A stretch of DNA of 64,000 nt from Pseudomonadota bacterium (GTDB lineage Bacteria; Pseudomonadota; Gammaproteobacteria; Burkholderiales; Burkholderiaceae_F): assembly GCA_021842465.1 (NCBI GenBank), contig JAKBZN010000002.1, forward strand, positions 62,001-126,000, in the 5' to 3' direction. Positions 37,213-61,709 of the stretch are shown piece after piece. The position numbers were made by a program, and so were the translations under genes. The notes below the pieces were generated by a model. The model made no database searches, was not told where the DNA came from, and was given only the letters and a program-made list of their open reading frames with translations. How positions within the stretch are numbered: position 1 is the stretch's first letter; every line of letters starts with the position of its first letter.

Positions 37213-37458
37213 AACTATGAGTAGCCACGATCCGGCAGGAGGGTGCTCACCTTCGGCCCCGTGCAATGCGTTCGTCACCACGGTGCCGTAGCCCGCAATC
37301 GGAGTGCTGCGGTCATTTCGCGCTGCAGCCGGCCTGCGGCAGGTCACGACCCAATCCGGCTGTTCGAGGCGGTACTGGTTCAGCAGCCGGTATCCAAGTG
37401 GAGCGGTCGCCCAGCACGCCTGATCAGGGACGGCACGTCGGTCATTCCGGGCATGGGG

Positions 37459-37551
37459 GCCGGCGGTCAACGCAACGGCAATGCGCGTGTAAGCCGCCAC
37501 CCAGGGAGCCGAGCGATTTGCGCTTCCGTCACATCCGGTGATGGGCATCAC
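37459..37551 (-). repeat. diverged repeat copy flanking the DGR on the left (inverted relative to 40832-40924)
   Basis: Reverse complement aligns to 40832-40924 over 93 bp without gaps; core GCGCAAATCRCTCGGCYCCCTGGGYGGCGGCTTAC has only 3 differences. Confidence 0.7.
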
Positions 37552-37661
37552 CCCGGGGCGGACACCCGACCCACTGCTGTCGGTCAGCCGTCAGCGGTTC
37601 AACGGTAGGAGGTGGGATTTTTTACAGTTTGGAGGAGCGGAGGGGGATTTTCCCGCAGGAA

Positions 37662-37740: not shown

Positions 37741-37757
37741 TCGGCACGAATTGTGCT
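37741..37757 (+). promoter_or_regulatory. candidate sigma-54 (-24/-12) promoter of the DGR target gene
   Basis: TCGGCACGAATTGTGCT: GG and GC spaced by exactly 10 nt, GGCACG and TGC retained versus TGGCACG-N4-TTGC; gene start at 37800-37827. Confidence 0.55.
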
Positions 37758-37826
37758 TTATTTATCTGCGGAGCGGCGAGACCGCGTAAAGGATGAAGAA
37801 TGAAAACCAAGGCAGAGAGGACCTTC

Positions 37827-38486
37827 ATGAAACGGCAACGCGGGATTGGGGCATTGCTTGGGGTGCTGTTGCTGGGGACGGCGGGGCTGGCGCAGGCGGA
37901 CACGTTTGTTGGGGTATTGCCGACGACGCCGGGTGGAACGAACTATCAGGCGTATTACGATTCGACGACGAATCTTACGTGGCTGGCGAATGCCGACATG
38001 AACGGCTTGATGACTTGGTCGGCGGCTAATACGTGGGCATCGAGCCTGGACATCAATGGCGTCACGGGATGGACGCTGCCGACGACGACGCCCAACTCAT
38101 CAAACTCCGCACTGGACTGTTTCGGCTACAACTGCACGGGCAGCCAGATGGGGAATCTCTTTTACAACGGGCTGGGCGGGACGGCGAGGAATTCCATCAC
38201 GACCAGCCACAACAGCAACTACAACGATTTTTCCAACGTCCAGTCCGGCCTCTATTGGTCGGCCACGGAGTACGCGCCCAATGCCAACGGCGCGTGGGGC
38301 TTCAATTTCGGCAATGGCGGCCAGGGCGTCGGCAGTAATACCGATAGTTTGTATGCGTGGGCTGTGCACTCGGGCGATGTCGGCGCGCCGGCGACCGGAG
38401 TCCCGGAGCCCGGCGTGCTGGGGCTGATGGGGATGGCGATTGTGGGCGCAGGCCTCGCGGCGCGGCGACGCTTGGCACTTCGGTAA
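37827..38486 (+). CDS. DGR target: exported DUF1566-like protein with PEP-CTERM sorting signal
   Basis: MKRQRGIGALLGVLLLGTAGLAQA signal peptide (start 37800 also possible); LYWSATEYAPN...AWGFNFG domain; VPEPGVLGLMGMAIVGAGLAARRRLALR C-terminus; contains VR. Confidence 0.9.
   Translation: MKRQRGIGALLGVLLLGTAGLAQADTFVGVLPTTPGGTNYQAYYDSTTNLTWLANADMNGLMTWSAANTWASSLDINGVTGWTLPTTTPNSSNSALDCFGYNCTGSQMGNLFYNGLGGTARNSITTSHNSNYNDFSNVQSGLYWSATEYAPNANGAWGFNFGNGGQGVGSNTDSLYAWAVHSGDVGAPATGVPEPGVLGLMGMAIVGAGLAARRRLALR
38235..38374 (+). repeat. DGR variable repeat (VR)
   Basis: 140 bp aligning without gaps to TR 39107-39246 (offset 872); 21 mismatches, 20 at TR adenines. Confidence 0.97.
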
Positions 38487-38515
38487 TTCGAGGGATTCGG
38501 CTCTTTTGAGGGGGT

Positions 38516-38537
38516 GCAGGGGGAGACCTCCCCCTGC
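38516..38537. other. perfect 10-bp hairpin between target gene and avd
   Basis: GCAGGGGGAG-AC-CTCCCCCTGC. Confidence 0.75.
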
Positions 38538-38551
38538 GGGTCGTCGTGCCT

Positions 38552-38568
38552 TGTCGGGAATTTTTACA
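38552..38568 (+). promoter_or_regulatory. candidate regulatory element TGTCG-N4-TTTTTACA, copy 2
   Basis: TGTCGGGAATTTTTACA directly upstream of the avd GTG. Confidence 0.4.
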
Positions 38569-38570
38569 CC

Positions 38571-38921
38571 GTGGCCCGGTACGAGCATCTGCCGATCTAC
38601 AAACAGGCGCTGGACGTGGCGGTGCACTTCGAGAAGGTGGTGGCGGGTTTCAGCCGCTATCACAAGTACACGCTGGGCACGGAATTGCGCAACAAGAGCC
38701 GGCAGGCGGTGACGCTGGTCATCAAGGCCAATGCCGCGCGCGACAAGCGGGAGCAACTGCTCGCCTTGCGCGACTGTCTCGACGAATTGCTGATCGTGAT
38801 GCGCATCGCCAAGGAAGCGCGGGCCTTCAAGAGCTTCGAGTCGTTTACCTACGCCGTCGAGCAGGTCGTATCGGTTTGCAGACAGAACGAAGGGTGGTTA
38901 CGCAGTACGCAAAAGGCGTGA
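38571..38921 (+). CDS. avd: Avd-like four-helix-bundle DGR accessory protein
   Basis: VARYEHLPIYKQALDVAVHFEKVVAGFSRYHKYTLGTELRNKSRQAVTLVIKANAARDKREQLLALRDCLDELLIVMRIAKEARAFKSFESFTYAVEQV; position between VR and TR. Confidence 0.88.
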   Translation: MARYEHLPIYKQALDVAVHFEKVVAGFSRYHKYTLGTELRNKSRQAVTLVIKANAARDKREQLLALRDCLDELLIVMRIAKEARAFKSFESFTYAVEQVVSVCRQNEGWLRSTQKA

Positions 38922-39072
38922 ACGCGAGGGGGCCTGAATCGCAGCTTTGCGGGCGCAAGCCGAAGGCCGCGAGCGAGCCGATGTGTCATTGTGCGCCTGT
39001 CCCGCCGGGATCCGTACACCGGCATGTCGATACAGGGCGCGCTACCCGTTCACCGGGATGCGCGTCCGGTGG

Positions 39073-39090
39073 GGCGGAGGATTCTCCGCC
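39073..39090 (+). other. 7-bp hairpin immediately 5' of the TR
   Basis: GGCGGAG-GATT-CTCCGCC, 16 nt before the TR. Confidence 0.5.
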
Positions 39091-39106
39091 GGAAAGTGGA
39101 CGGGCA

Positions 39107-39246
39107 AACGTCCAGTCCAACAACTATTGGTCGGCCACGGAGTACGCGCCCAATACCAACAACGCGTGGAACTTCAATTTCAACAATGGCAACCAGAACA
39201 ACGACAATAAGACCAATAGTTTGTATGCGTGGGCTGTGCACTCGGG
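39107..39246 (+). repeat. DGR template repeat (TR)
   Basis: AACGTCCAGTCCAACAACTATTGG...CACTCGGG; ten AAC codons in the VR reading frame. Confidence 0.97.
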
Positions 39247-39249
39247 AGA

Positions 39250-40731
39250 ATGATCGCCCTTGATCTTTCGCTGGAGAATTTGTACCGGCAGTATCACCGC
39301 TGCCGGCGCAACAAGCGAAACACCGCCAACGCCTTGCGCTTCGAGGCCGAGCAGGAGAAGAACCTGGTCGCGCTGCAGGAAGCACTGGTGACGCGCAGCT
39401 ACCGCCCCGGCCGTTCTGTCTGCTTTTTTGCAACCAAGCCCAAGCTGCGCGAGATCTTCGCCGCCGATTTCCGCGACCGGGTGGTGCACCACCTGCTGGT
39501 GGAGTACCTGGAAGGCATCTGGGAGCCCGTCTTCATCCACGATTCCTACGCCTGCCGCAAGGGCAAGGGCGTGCATGCCGCGGTGGATCGTTTGCAGAGC
39601 TTCCTGCGCCAAGCTACGGCAAACGGAACGCGGCCAGCCTGGTTCCTGCAACTCGACGTGCGCAACTTCTTCATGCGCATCGACAAGGACATCCTGTTTG
39701 GCATGCTTGCGCGCAAGCTCCGGGACGAAACGGCGCTCTGGCTCACGCGCACGCTGGTATATCACGATTGCACCGAAGAGTTCGTGCTGCGCGGTAAACC
39801 CGCCCTGATGGATGCCATACCGCCGCACAAGACACTCTTCGCCGCCGAGCCGAACAAGGGATTGCCGATCGGCAACCTCAACAGCCAGTTCTTTGCCAAC
39901 GTGTACCTGAACGGCCTCGACCAGTTCGTCAAGCACGAACTCCGATGCCGGCACTATCTTCGCTACTGCGACGATTTCGTCCTGCTCGCCAACGACCCGG
40001 AGATCCTGCGCGATTGGCAAGCGCGCATCGAGAGCTATCTGCGAGACGATCTCGCGCTGGAACTCAACCGCAAGCAGCGCCTGGCGCCGGTGTCCAACGG
40101 CGTGGATTTCCTGGGCTACATCGTGCGTCGCGATTACATGCTCGTGCGGCGGCGGGTGGTAAACAACCTCAAGGCCAAGCTGCGGGACTATGAGGCCCGC
40201 AACGTTGCCGACCGAGGCGATGCGCTTTGCTACCGGCTTGACGAATCGCGGCTCGATGCGCTGGCTTCCACGTTGTCCTCCTATCTCGGGCACTTGAAGC
40301 GAGCCTCCAGCTGGCGGCTGTGGCAGGCGCTGTGGCAGCGGTTCGGGTTTCTCCAGCTGGTTTTCGATTTCGACCCGGCGCGCTGGAAGCTCGTGCGCAA
40401 GTTTCCCGTGCCCGCCGATCTCAATACCGTGCGCCGGCAGTACCGCCATCTCCGCTGGCGGTTTCCGCAGGATGCGCTGTTTTTCCGTGTCGGGCGCTTT
40501 TACGAGTGCTATGACATCCGCGAGCCGGAATGGGTCTCGCACCTCGGCTTGAAGCGCATGGGCTGGACGCGCCGGGGCGCGCGCTGGGGTTTCCCGCGGT
40601 CGCATCTCGAACGCAATCTCGCGGCTGCGCTCGCCGCCGGTTTCCGCGTGCTGCTGATTGGCGAGCGCGAAGGCGAACACGGTCGCCCGCGAAGGCGCGT
40701 GCCGATATGCCGGCTTGTTCCGCACGGCTGA
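39250..40731 (+). CDS. DGR reverse transcriptase with C-terminal MutS domain I-like extension
   Basis: WFLQLDVRNFFMRID (motif A), GLPIGNLNSQFFANVYLNGLD (DGR-type GxxxSQ), YLRYCDDFVLLA (motif C); C-terminal FPQDALFFRVGRFYECYD...GFPRSHLERNLAAALAAGFRVLLIGE. Start trimmed to ATG 39250. Confidence 0.95.
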   Translation: MIALDLSLENLYRQYHRCRRNKRNTANALRFEAEQEKNLVALQEALVTRSYRPGRSVCFFATKPKLREIFAADFRDRVVHHLLVEYLEGIWEPVFIHDSYACRKGKGVHAAVDRLQSFLRQATANGTRPAWFLQLDVRNFFMRIDKDILFGMLARKLRDETALWLTRTLVYHDCTEEFVLRGKPALMDAIPPHKTLFAAEPNKGLPIGNLNSQFFANVYLNGLDQFVKHELRCRHYLRYCDDFVLLANDPEILRDWQARIESYLRDDLALELNRKQRLAPVSNGVDFLGYIVRRDYMLVRRRVVNNLKAKLRDYEARNVADRGDALCYRLDESRLDALASTLSSYLGHLKRASSWRLWQALWQRFGFLQLVFDFDPARWKLVRKFPVPADLNTVRRQYRHLRWRFPQDALFFRVGRFYECYDIREPEWVSHLGLKRMGWTRRGARWGFPRSHLERNLAAALAAGFRVLLIGEREGEHGRPRRRVPICRLVPHG

Positions 40732-40831
40732 CCCGCGCTCCCATGGTGCTCAGTATTGGGTAGACGCGAGGACCCAAGTCCATCAGCAACGGTTCGTGCT
40801 TCTCCCCGGCGAGACGCGCGCCCACGTCGCT

Positions 40832-40924
40832 GTGATGCCCGGCAACGAGCTTGGCCGAGGCGCAAATCACTCGGCCCCCTGGGCGGCGGCTTACCGCCGC
40901 ATTGCCGGCACATTGCCCGCCGGC
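40832..40924 (+). repeat. diverged repeat copy flanking the DGR on the right
   Basis: Pairs with 37459-37551 in inverted orientation. Confidence 0.7.
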
Positions 40925-41301
40925 ACCGATGTCGGCGCTGGCCGACCAGCACTCGTAGGTGCTACGGCAGGTGTCAGAGTGAAGCGGTCCCTCGAAAGAC
41001 AGCTTCGGAAGACGGGTGGTGGACTGCTCGTGGCCGGGTCCTGCCGGCCCAGGATGCACCGGAGCGGCCATTCCGCCATCCGCTGCCAGCGTGTAGCGGA
41101 CGACTGAGTGCCCGGCTACCGGGGGCCGGGAATTGCAACCCTGGTTTGCACGTAGCCTCCTTCCTGCGATGCCACGGCGTTTGCCACGCATTCCGGTGCA
41201 GGGCACCCGGAACGTGTGCGGGACACCCTTCCCACGCATCCGTCGCGCAGGGACGACACGTCGTGACATGCGCGAAGCCATCCCGCTCCAGGCGGAACGA
41301 A

Positions 41302-55103: not shown

Positions 55104-55189
55104 CTTCGTTGATCAAAAATCCCAAAAACGATTTCGCCGAGCCAATGATCGCCGGCTCATAAAAGCACCAAAAATTGGATAAGCACACG

Positions 55190-57985
<2,796 letters not shown>

Positions 57986-57989
<4 letters not shown>

Positions 57990-59527
57990 GTGACGAGGTT
58001 ATGGATAGCGCCGTCGCAGCGCCACGCCGCAAATCCATCCTTGAACTGGCGGCGGCGGAGGCGCAGGCCTTTCTGCTGAAGCCGGAGAGCTATTGCAGCC
58101 TTGATCTTCCGCCCTATATTCGCTTCGATGCTTTGATCGAGGCAACACATGAGGCGCTTACAGGGAAAAAGCTTTCGGACTTGTCCTCCAAGCCGCGAGA
58201 TCATGATGACGTGAATTACACCATCCTCAACAACAAGGACGGCAAGTTTGCGTGGCGACCGTTTCAGTTAATTCACCCTGCGCTGTATGTCTCGCTTGTG
58301 CACCAGCTGACGACGGACGCCCACTGGCAATCGCTGGTGGAGCGTTTCGCCGCATTCTCTGCAAACAGGAAGATTCACTGCCTGAGCCTGCCGGTTGTCT
58401 CGCTGTTGGGGGAGAAAGACAAAGCGGAACAGGTTTCCCAGTGGTGGCATTCAGTGGAGCAGCGCTCCATCGAGTTGTCGCTGGAATACGACTACCTGAT
58501 TGAAACCGACATCACCGATTGCTACGGCGCCATCTACACCCACTCGATCGCGTGGGCCGTACACACCAAGGAAGTAGCGAAAGCAAACCCAAACCGAACC
58601 GACAAGACACTGCTCGGTAACATCATCGACGCCCATATCCAGGACATGCGGCATGGGCAAACCAACGGCATTCCGCAAGGCTCTGCGCTGATGGATTTCA
58701 TCGCCGAACTGGTGCTTGGCTTTGCCGACCATGAATTGTCCGAAAAGATTCAGGCTTCGAAGATCAAGGATTATTGCATCCTGCGCTACCGGGACGATTA
58801 CCGGGTCTTCGTCAATAACCCACAGGATGGTGAGCAACTCATCAAGTTGCTGACCGAAGTCATGATTGGTCTTGGTCTGAAACTCAACCCCGGAAAGACC
58901 AAAACAAGCAACGATGTGGTACGCGCATCGATCAAGGGCGACAAGCTCGCTTGGATCTTCCGCAAGCACAGCGAAAAGAGCCTGCAAAAGCACCTGCTCA
59001 TCATCCATGACCACGCTATGAGGTTTTCCCATGCAGGCAGTCTTGTGGTGGCGCTGAACGCGTTCCACAAACGCATTGCACGCTCGAAGCGCGTGCTCGA
59101 ACAGCCGATGCCCATGATCGCCATCGTGGTTGACATTGCCTATCGTAACCCACGCACCTATGCCATCTGCGCTGCAATTCTCAGCAAGCTGATGAGTTCT
59201 TTGCCATCGGAAGAAGAAAAGACGGCCGTTGCAGAAAAGATCAAGGCCCGGTTTGCCAAGATCCCTAACACTGGGCATATGCAGATATGGATACAGCGCA
59301 TCACCTTGCCTATCGACAAAAGCATTTCGTATGAGGAACCGATCTGCAAGCTGGTATCGGGGGAAGACGTGTCGCTGTGGAACATGCAGTGGATTACCAA
59401 CGAGGAATTGAAGACGTCGATTGCCACGTCGGTGATCGACAAAAACGTGCTTCAAGAGTTGGAACCTGTGATCACAACCAAAGAAGTCGAACTGTTTCAG
59501 TCAAAGGAAATGGAGGGCTACTACTGA
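57986..59527 (+). CDS. reverse transcriptase of the UG/DRT defence-associated type, embedded in the hsd operon
   Basis: YLIETDITDCYGAIYTHSIAWA (motif A), GIPQGSALMDFIAELVLGFAD (motif B), ILRYRDDYRVFVNN (motif C). ATGA overlap with hsdS. Confidence 0.88.
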
Positions 59528-59606: not shown

Positions 59607-61709
59607 ATGAAAGCGACCGAAGCCAAGCTGCTCGATTTCCTGAAGAGATCCCCGCAGTTCATCATCCCAATCTACCAGCGCACCTATTCCTGGAGTTCGC
59701 CGCAGTGCCAGCAACTGTGGGATGACATCCTGCGTGCTGGCAGTAATGATGCCATCGGCGGGCATTTCATCGGTTCGGTGGTGTATATCGAGCAGGGTCT
59801 GTATCAGGTGTCCAGCCAGTCGCCGCTGCTGGTGATCGACGGCCAGCAGCGCCTGACAACGGCCATGCTGATCATCGAGGCGCTGTGCCGTCAACTGGGT
59901 GAGGCCGAGCCCATCGATGGCTTCTCGGCCAAGAAGCTGCGCAACTACTACCTGCTCAACCCGCTGGAAGACGGCGAGCGCGGCTTCAAGCTGTTGCTGA
60001 CGCAGACCGACAAGGACAGCCTGCTGGCCCTGCTGCGCCAGAAGCCCTGGCCGGCCCAGCCTTCGCTGCGCATTCAGGAGAACTATGCCTTCTTCGAGCA
60101 GCAGGTAACGGCGCTGACCGACCTCACGCCACTGTGCCGGGGGCTGGCGAAGCTGATCATTGTGGATATCGCCCTCAGCCGCGAGCAGGACAACCCGCAA
60201 CTGATCTTCGAGAGCATGAACTCCACCGGGCGGGCGCTCAGCCAGGCCGACCTGATCCGCAACTTCGTACTGATGGGGCTGACGCCGGCGCACCAAACCC
60301 GGCTGTACGAAGACCACTGGCGGCCGATGGAGGTGGCCTTCGGCCAGGAAGGCTATGGCGAGCACTTCGACTGGTTCATGCGCCACTACCTGACGGTGCG
60401 CACCGGCGACCTGCCCAAGATCGGTGATGTGTACGAGGCATTCAAGGCTTTTGCCCGCACGTCCGAGCAGGCGTCGGCCGGGGTGGATGCGCTGGTGGCC
60501 GACATCCATACCTTCGGTGGTTACTACTGCGCCATGGCGCTGGGGCAGGAAACTACCAAGGCACTGGCCGAAGCCTTCCAGGATTTGCGCGAGCTGAAGG
60601 TGGATGTGGCTTACCCCTTTATGCTGGAACTCTATGATGACTTCGCCCGTGCCCGCCTGAGCAAGGATGACTTCTTCGCTGCGGTGCGGCTGGTGGAAGC
60701 CTATGTGTTCCGGCGTGCCGTGTGCGCCATCCCTACCAACTCCCTGAACAAGACCTTCGCCAACTTTGGCCGGGCCTTGAAGAAGGACCGCTACCTGGAA
60801 AGCATTCAGGCGCACTTTCTCAGCCTGCCGTCCTACCGGCGCTTTCCCGGTGACGAGGAGTTCAAGCGCGAGCTGAGTGTGCGCGACTTATACAACTTCC
60901 GCAGCCGCAGCTACTGGTTGCGGCGGCTGGAGAACCACGGTCGCAAGGAACGGGTGCCGGTGGATGAATACACCATCGAGCACATCCTGCCGCAGAACGA
61001 GAACCTCCCTGCCAAATGGCGTGAGGCGCTGGGTCCCGACTGGCAGCGGGTGCAGGCGAGCTGGCTGCACACCCTCGGCAACCTGACGCTCACCGGCTAC
61101 AACGCCGAATACAGCGACCGCCCCTTTGCCGACAAGCGCGACATGCCCGGTGGCTTCAAGCACAGCCCGCTGCGCCTGAATGAGGGCCTGGGTGTGCTCG
61201 ACACCTGGGACGAGGCCGCCATCCAGGTCCGCGCCCAGCGCCTGGCCGCGGAGGCGGTGATGGTCTGGCAGGCCCCCGCACTGTCAGCGGAGGTACTCGC
61301 CGGCTATCGGCTGCCGTCGTCTGTCAGCGTCGGCTACGACCTGAGCGATCACCCGCAACTGGCCGCAGGTGCCGCCATGCGGGCCCTGTTCGATGCGCTG
61401 CGCAAGGAGGTGATGGCGCTGGACCCCGGTGTCACCGAGGAAGTGCTCAAGCTGTATATCGCTTTCAAGGCCGAGACCAACTTTGTGGATGTGGTGCCAC
61501 AAAAAAGCCGCCTGCGGCTGTCCCTGAACATGGCCTTCCATGAACTGCACGACCCCAAGGGCCTGGCCAAGGATGTGACCAACCTCGGCCGCTGGGGCAA
61601 TGGCGATGTCGAGGTCGGCCTAAGTACCCTGGAGGAACTGCCCTATGTCATGGGGCTGGTACGCCAGGCCTTTGAGAAGCAGATGGGGAATGGCGGAGGG
61701 GATAGTTGA
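59607..61709 (+). CDS. DUF262/DUF1524 (GmrSD-like) nuclease with C-terminal DUF5655-like domain
   Basis: [38 protein letters not shown]...[24 protein letters not shown]. Confidence 0.88.

Follow-up and report, generated by a model that had tools for sequence, protein, structure and literature searches.

The window, a 64,000-nucleotide stretch of a Pseudomonadota bacterium contig, harbors a cassette that, judged from its sequence, is a genuine and complete diversity-generating retroelement (DGR) on a chromosome. Very probably it diversifies a secreted C-type-lectin-like protein by the mechanism proposed below. On the + strand, open reading frames (ORFs) and Pfam matches place a target gene (37827-38486), avd (38571-38921), the template repeat (TR) and a reverse transcriptase (RT) gene (39250-40731) in this order. 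A preliminary description of this DNA had reported a complete DGR with the order target-variable repeat (VR), avd, TR and RT, which the ORFs and Pfam confirm. It had also called this order archetypal; the element as a whole is only partly so, with an RT of unusual length and a different placement of the VR within the target. Its core identification of a DGR holds; the MutS domain I on the RT, the PEP-CTERM tail of the target and a second copy of the VR were not mentioned there.

The avd gene (38571-38921, + strand) encodes an accessory variability determinant of the four-helix-bundle family. It was matched by PF22296 (bAvd, E=5e-9) with 37 bits, 3 bits under the Pfam cut-off of 40, and by the NCBIfam model DivGenRetAVD (E=1.5e-9) with 38 bits, under the cut-off of 80 for that model. 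Both Avd models thus match a gene in the canonical position. The VR lies in an ORF of the C-type-lectin-like or Ig-like kind known from DGRs, as an Lcl_C/DUF1566 match (E=3.3e-12) spans it.

Several further features surround the cassette. A dispersed repeat of ~130 bp brackets the DGR in inverted orientation (37437-37568 and 40815-40946, 72% complementary); it has 8 matches genome-wide, 4 of them within the first 5 kb of contig C9. A second RT at 57986-59527 is strongly AbiP2-like (PADLOC AbiP2, E=3.6e-205). Near it are a type I methyltransferase gene (55175-56746) and a likely specificity subunit gene (56736-57989), and a gene beside it (59607-61709) matches the PADLOC Orf5/HEC-06 models. Together, these genes probably make up a defence island that lies 17 kb away from the DGR.

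VR and TR are direct repeats on the + strand. When their alignment was recomputed over 140 bp (VR 38235-38374, TR 39107-39246), no gap and 21 differences were found, of which 20 fall at TR adenines, reproducing to the base the alignment and the adenine positions of the preliminary description. The sole difference at another nucleotide is a G to T change at TR 39211. With 44 adenines among the 140 TR positions, the hypergeometric probability of 20/21 differences at A is p = 3.6e-11, which bears out the adenine-specific TR-to-VR change proposed earlier; counted by site, 20 of 44 adenines differ versus 1 of 96 non-adenine sites. At the 3' ends the repeat is 3 bp longer and includes one more adenine difference, giving a 143-bp pair (VR 38235-38377, TR 39107-39249) with 22 differences, 21 of them at TR adenines. 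The TR contains 15 AAY codons, 10 of which are altered in the VR, and a stop codon can be reached by A to N changes from only one TR codon (AAG). The final ~30 bp of the 140-bp repeat carry no mutation, as expected of an IMH. A stem-loop 3' of the VR was also sought, and instead of a convincing BPP-1-like one just short 6-bp palindromes were detected; in BPP-1 such a stem-loop is not strictly needed (PMC12875486). A TR/VR finder search revealed adenine-specific pairs beside most of 80 related RTs as well, which shows that the pair belongs to an evolving family and is no chance repeat.

Among the adenine changes of the window VR, 17 of 20 are A to G, mostly yielding glycine, and this is the highest G share of all VRs scored (p 1.5e-4 before allowing for ~90 VRs). 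Over the scored VRs of the family, adenines were changed to G in 655 cases, to C in 278 and to T in 586. A special process behind the A to G excess was considered and dropped, as the other members differ freely; the excess is attributed to noise from one event or from selection.

The RT (39250-40731, + strand, 493 aa) matches RVT_1 (E=2.4e-16), and its closest relatives are RTs beside adenine-specific TR/VR pairs. The DGR-type GxxxSQ motif named in the preliminary description is present as IGNLNSQ, together with YCDD; (I/V/L)GxxxSQ in motif 4 and YxDD are the motifs of DGR RTs (PMC3521204). The structure of the full-length protein was predicted with a pLDDT of 95 and a pTM of 0.88. The published mean length of DGR RTs is 378 aa (PMC3521204), and the window RT exceeds it by ~115 aa because of its MutS domain I.

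The last TR position, 39249, immediately precedes the RT start codon (GGGAGAATGA). In an alignment of 15 members of the clade described below, the junction from TR end to RT start is conserved and GGAGAATGA-like, with little or no spacer. In BPP-1, a structured spacer between TR and RT recruits RT-Avd and primes the cDNA (PMC12875486); an RNA equivalent to this spacer must here sit within the RT gene or elsewhere. RNA structure in the 5' coding region of the RT was examined as a substitute and rejected, since covariation was almost nil (0.06 kcal/mol, RNAalifold on 15 relatives); the single-sequence z-score of this region, -2.3, is suggestive only. A CGGCAG...CTGCCG hairpin at 39280-39310 (RT codons about 12-20) is retained in most of the 15 relatives and is possibly a template RNA structure within the coding sequence.

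The C-terminus of the RT (residues 395-477, 40432-40680, + strand) matches PF01624 (MutS_I) with 24 bits, above the Pfam cut-off of 20.6. The structure of this tail was predicted with a pLDDT of 89 and a pTM of 0.80, and in a Foldseek search all 50 matches listed were MutS or its eukaryotic homologues, the best among them reaching a TM-score of 0.70 on the query and E-values down to 7e-6. A profile was built from 41 aligned tail domains; six further RTs, whose tails were degenerate or difficult to align, were excluded from it. Against PDB sequences it detected Taq MutS (E = 3.4e-17) and E. coli MutS (1e-14), collinear over ~100 residues. F417-Y-E419 of the RT aligns with F39-Y-E41 of Taq MutS, the mismatch-reading position, so that Pfam score, predicted fold and F-x-E motif all identify a MutS domain I. 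The RT tail is not a MutS, because the remaining MutS domains are absent: the RT ORF ends after domain I, and Pfam finds no connector, clamp or ATPase.

The tail is widespread among related RTs. One scan of a genome collection yielded 80 relatives, and in 35 of 81 RTs (these and the window RT) PF01624 matched at E<=0.01. With the 41-member profile, 47 of 82 genomic RT ORFs and 0 of the 80 best viral RT ORFs were found to carry the domain, and among phage and plasmid records searched for an RT-MutS fusion none covers 80% of the query. In the 41 aligned tails, G41 and E45 of G-x-[FYW]-x-E are invariant and position 43 is F, Y or W in 39; when the six excluded tails are included, the E is kept in 42/47 and the aromatic residue in 40/47, the E being lost in ~5/47, so that any mismatch reading would not extend to every member. 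GFP and Q are near-invariant among these very diverged domains, and where a letter is aligned the E of F-x-E is found in 40/40. Small stand-alone MutS-I-like ORFs occur near tail-bearing DGR RTs at two loci, L067 (2176-2496) and L082 (3007-3342), which show separate and fused forms of MSL together. MSL (MutS-like, PF01624) is a known DGR accessory, attributed to Wu et al. 2018 in PMC10053308, and the association of DGRs with MSL is hence not new. The fusion of MSL to the RT may or may not already be contained in Wu et al. 2018.

The target ORF opens at 37800; translation more likely starts at the ATG at 37827, since the paralogue on contig C9 of the same genome also begins MK..RGIGALLGVLLL. 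The encoded protein (37827-38486, + strand) combines a signal peptide, judged by eye, an Lcl_C/DUF1566 domain holding the VR (PF07603, E=3.3e-12) and a PEP-CTERM tail. DUF1566 is the commonest reported DGR target domain and has a CLec fold (PMC6642488). The sorting signal (PF07589, 38400-38471, + strand; G000:C8:100400-100471 in the genome) lies directly 3' of the VR and scores 21.5 bits against a cut-off of 20.7. It shows the architecture of PEP-CTERM substrates, with VPEP, a hydrophobic stretch forming a TM helix, and the basic residues RRR. The signal thus separates the VR from the C-terminus of the target. A search of the genome turned up just one other PEP-CTERM protein (G000:C18:67958-68032).

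The paralogue is a second target copy (L119 3489-4160, minus strand) whose VR is identical to that of the window. The two copies are identical over window positions 37890-38612 (723 bp including the VR) and ~90% alike upstream; past 38612 the second copy continues with sequence similar to that found downstream of the window RT (40968-41052). No avd, TR or RT was found at the second locus. Most simply, recent gene conversion would have homogenised a paralogous target with the window copy, or part of the locus would have been duplicated recently; an artefact of short-read assembly is possible. Independent homing was rejected as the source of the identical VR, since the identical tract is five times as long as the TR.

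About 30 residues ending in a sorting signal come after the VR in the window and in 12 relatives. The tail is of the VPEP type in the window, L039, L041, L043 (after a frameshift), L044, L046, L047 and L053, VPVPA in L040 and L042, VPEA in L045, VPAP in L050 and IPTL-like in L055. In the RT tree, the RTs with CTERM targets fall in one 17-member clade (ultrafast bootstrap 100, SH-aLRT 93). A CTERM signal ends 13/13 readable targets of this clade, the other four members having no readable target, and one state change on the tree accounts for the tail. The clade covers beta- and gammaproteobacteria and a Candidatus Brocadiaceae bacterium, and both the MutS-tailed RT and the CTERM-tailed target recur in it. 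Outside the clade most VRs end a few residues from the stop codon, and in some second targets (L054, L073, L074, L080 and L091) the VR precedes large additional domains. In L043 the target frame shifts within the VR (645-740) and the CTERM tail lies in a different frame, reflecting either an assembly error or a homing-induced indel.

Exosortase was matched strongly (PF09721, E<1e-30) in 11/11 clade genomes examined versus 6/46 other genomes with DGR RTs (Fisher p = 7e-8). Part of this association is to be expected, given that CTERM proteins occur in genomes with exosortases, but it shows that the tails are genuine sorting signals. No exosortase was found in the window's own genome, which is 89% complete; 2/2 genomes of the same genus encode one.

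As the sequence shows, the TR is the adenine-rich donor and the VR its adenine-mutated copy within the target, with Avd and the SQ-motif RT as the remaining parts of the cassette. Following the BPP-1 paradigm, RT-Avd would reverse-transcribe TR RNA with errors opposite adenines, and the mutated cDNA would replace the VR. As in exosortase biology generally, the signal peptide would export the target, the PEP-CTERM helix would hold it and an exosortase would cut it. The lectin face formed by the VR would then lie near the C-terminus of a mature surface- or EPS-associated protein. More tentatively, as F-x-E is retained, the fused MutS domain I might use it to bind the mismatched cDNA/VR or template/cDNA duplex. 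Such binding might make the hypermutated heteroduplex more stable or protect it against the mismatch repair of the host. The conserved residues give a true mismatch role of the domain an appreciable chance that still falls short of even. Similarly tentative is the wider proposal that a DGR lineage captured the mismatch-reading domain of MutS, recognises its own mismatches and biases the fate of hypermutated DNA, protecting it or promoting its fixation, with one clade dedicated to exosortase-sorted surface lectins.

Just as plausible as such a mismatch role is that the element is an ordinary BPP-1-like DGR, in which the MutS-like tail is a nucleic-acid handle for TR RNA or cDNA and the CTERM signal is incidental. 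MutS domain I binds nucleic acid backbones, F-x-E is degenerate in some members, and many DGR RTs lack the tail, among them all 80 best viral relatives, as a simple handle would allow. However, the constancy of the E of F-x-E and the near-invariance of GFP and Q despite high divergence speak against a mere handle, and CTERM tail and exosortase are found together throughout the clade, which fits poorly with an incidental signal.

It is unlikely that the cassette is degenerate, once functional and now frozen. Such a history would suit the finding that both VRs of the genome are identical, the lack of avd, TR and RT beside the second copy and the exosortase missing from the incomplete assembly. 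Yet every ORF is intact, the catalytic motifs and the AAY codon design of the TR are kept, and an identical tract far exceeding the TR reflects gene conversion or a recent duplication rather than a lack of homing. The idea that VR and TR are no more than duplicates that diverged, their adenine bias being caused by selection or by general A to G mutation, could appeal to the exceptional G share of the window VR. This is exceedingly improbable, as differences are nearly confined to adenine sites, A to C and A to T changes occur freely in other members, and RT and Avd adjoin the repeats; the combination refutes it.

An RT carrying MutS domain I with a conserved F-x-E would offer a single-residue test of how mismatched DGR cDNA escapes rejection or repair. 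A link between DGRs and exosortases would mean that these bacteria vary surface or EPS proteins of a class that has been implicated in forming flocs and biofilms. In the literature searched, which lacks most subscription papers, no link of DGRs to PEP-CTERM or exosortase was found. The new parts are the MutS-tailed RT within a lineage with CTERM targets; DGRs and the MSL accessory have already been described.

The target resembles PEP-CTERM/exosortase proteins, such as floc-forming ones and the CrtB substrates of Nostoc (PMC12188702), in its signal peptide, VPEP, helix and basic tail, and differs from them in that none was reported as hypervariable or DGR-driven in the literature searched. DUF1566/Lcl_C targets of DGRs have the VR at the C-terminus (PMC6642488), whereas here a PEP-CTERM-type tail follows it. 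The RT tail belongs to the same Pfam family as the MSL accessory (PF01624), which PMC10053308 likewise places in a DGR setting; unlike the separate MSL ORFs of L067 and L082, it forms the C-terminal end of the RT. With the DGR of Bordetella phage BPP-1 (mtd-avd-TR-brt) the window element shares the gene order, the Avd family, an SQ-motif RT, adenine-specific TR-to-VR change and a C-type-lectin-type target. In contrast to BPP-1, where a structured spacer separates TR and RT (PMC12875486), its TR abuts the RT; it is also chromosomal, its RT carries a MutS domain I and a CTERM signal follows its VR.
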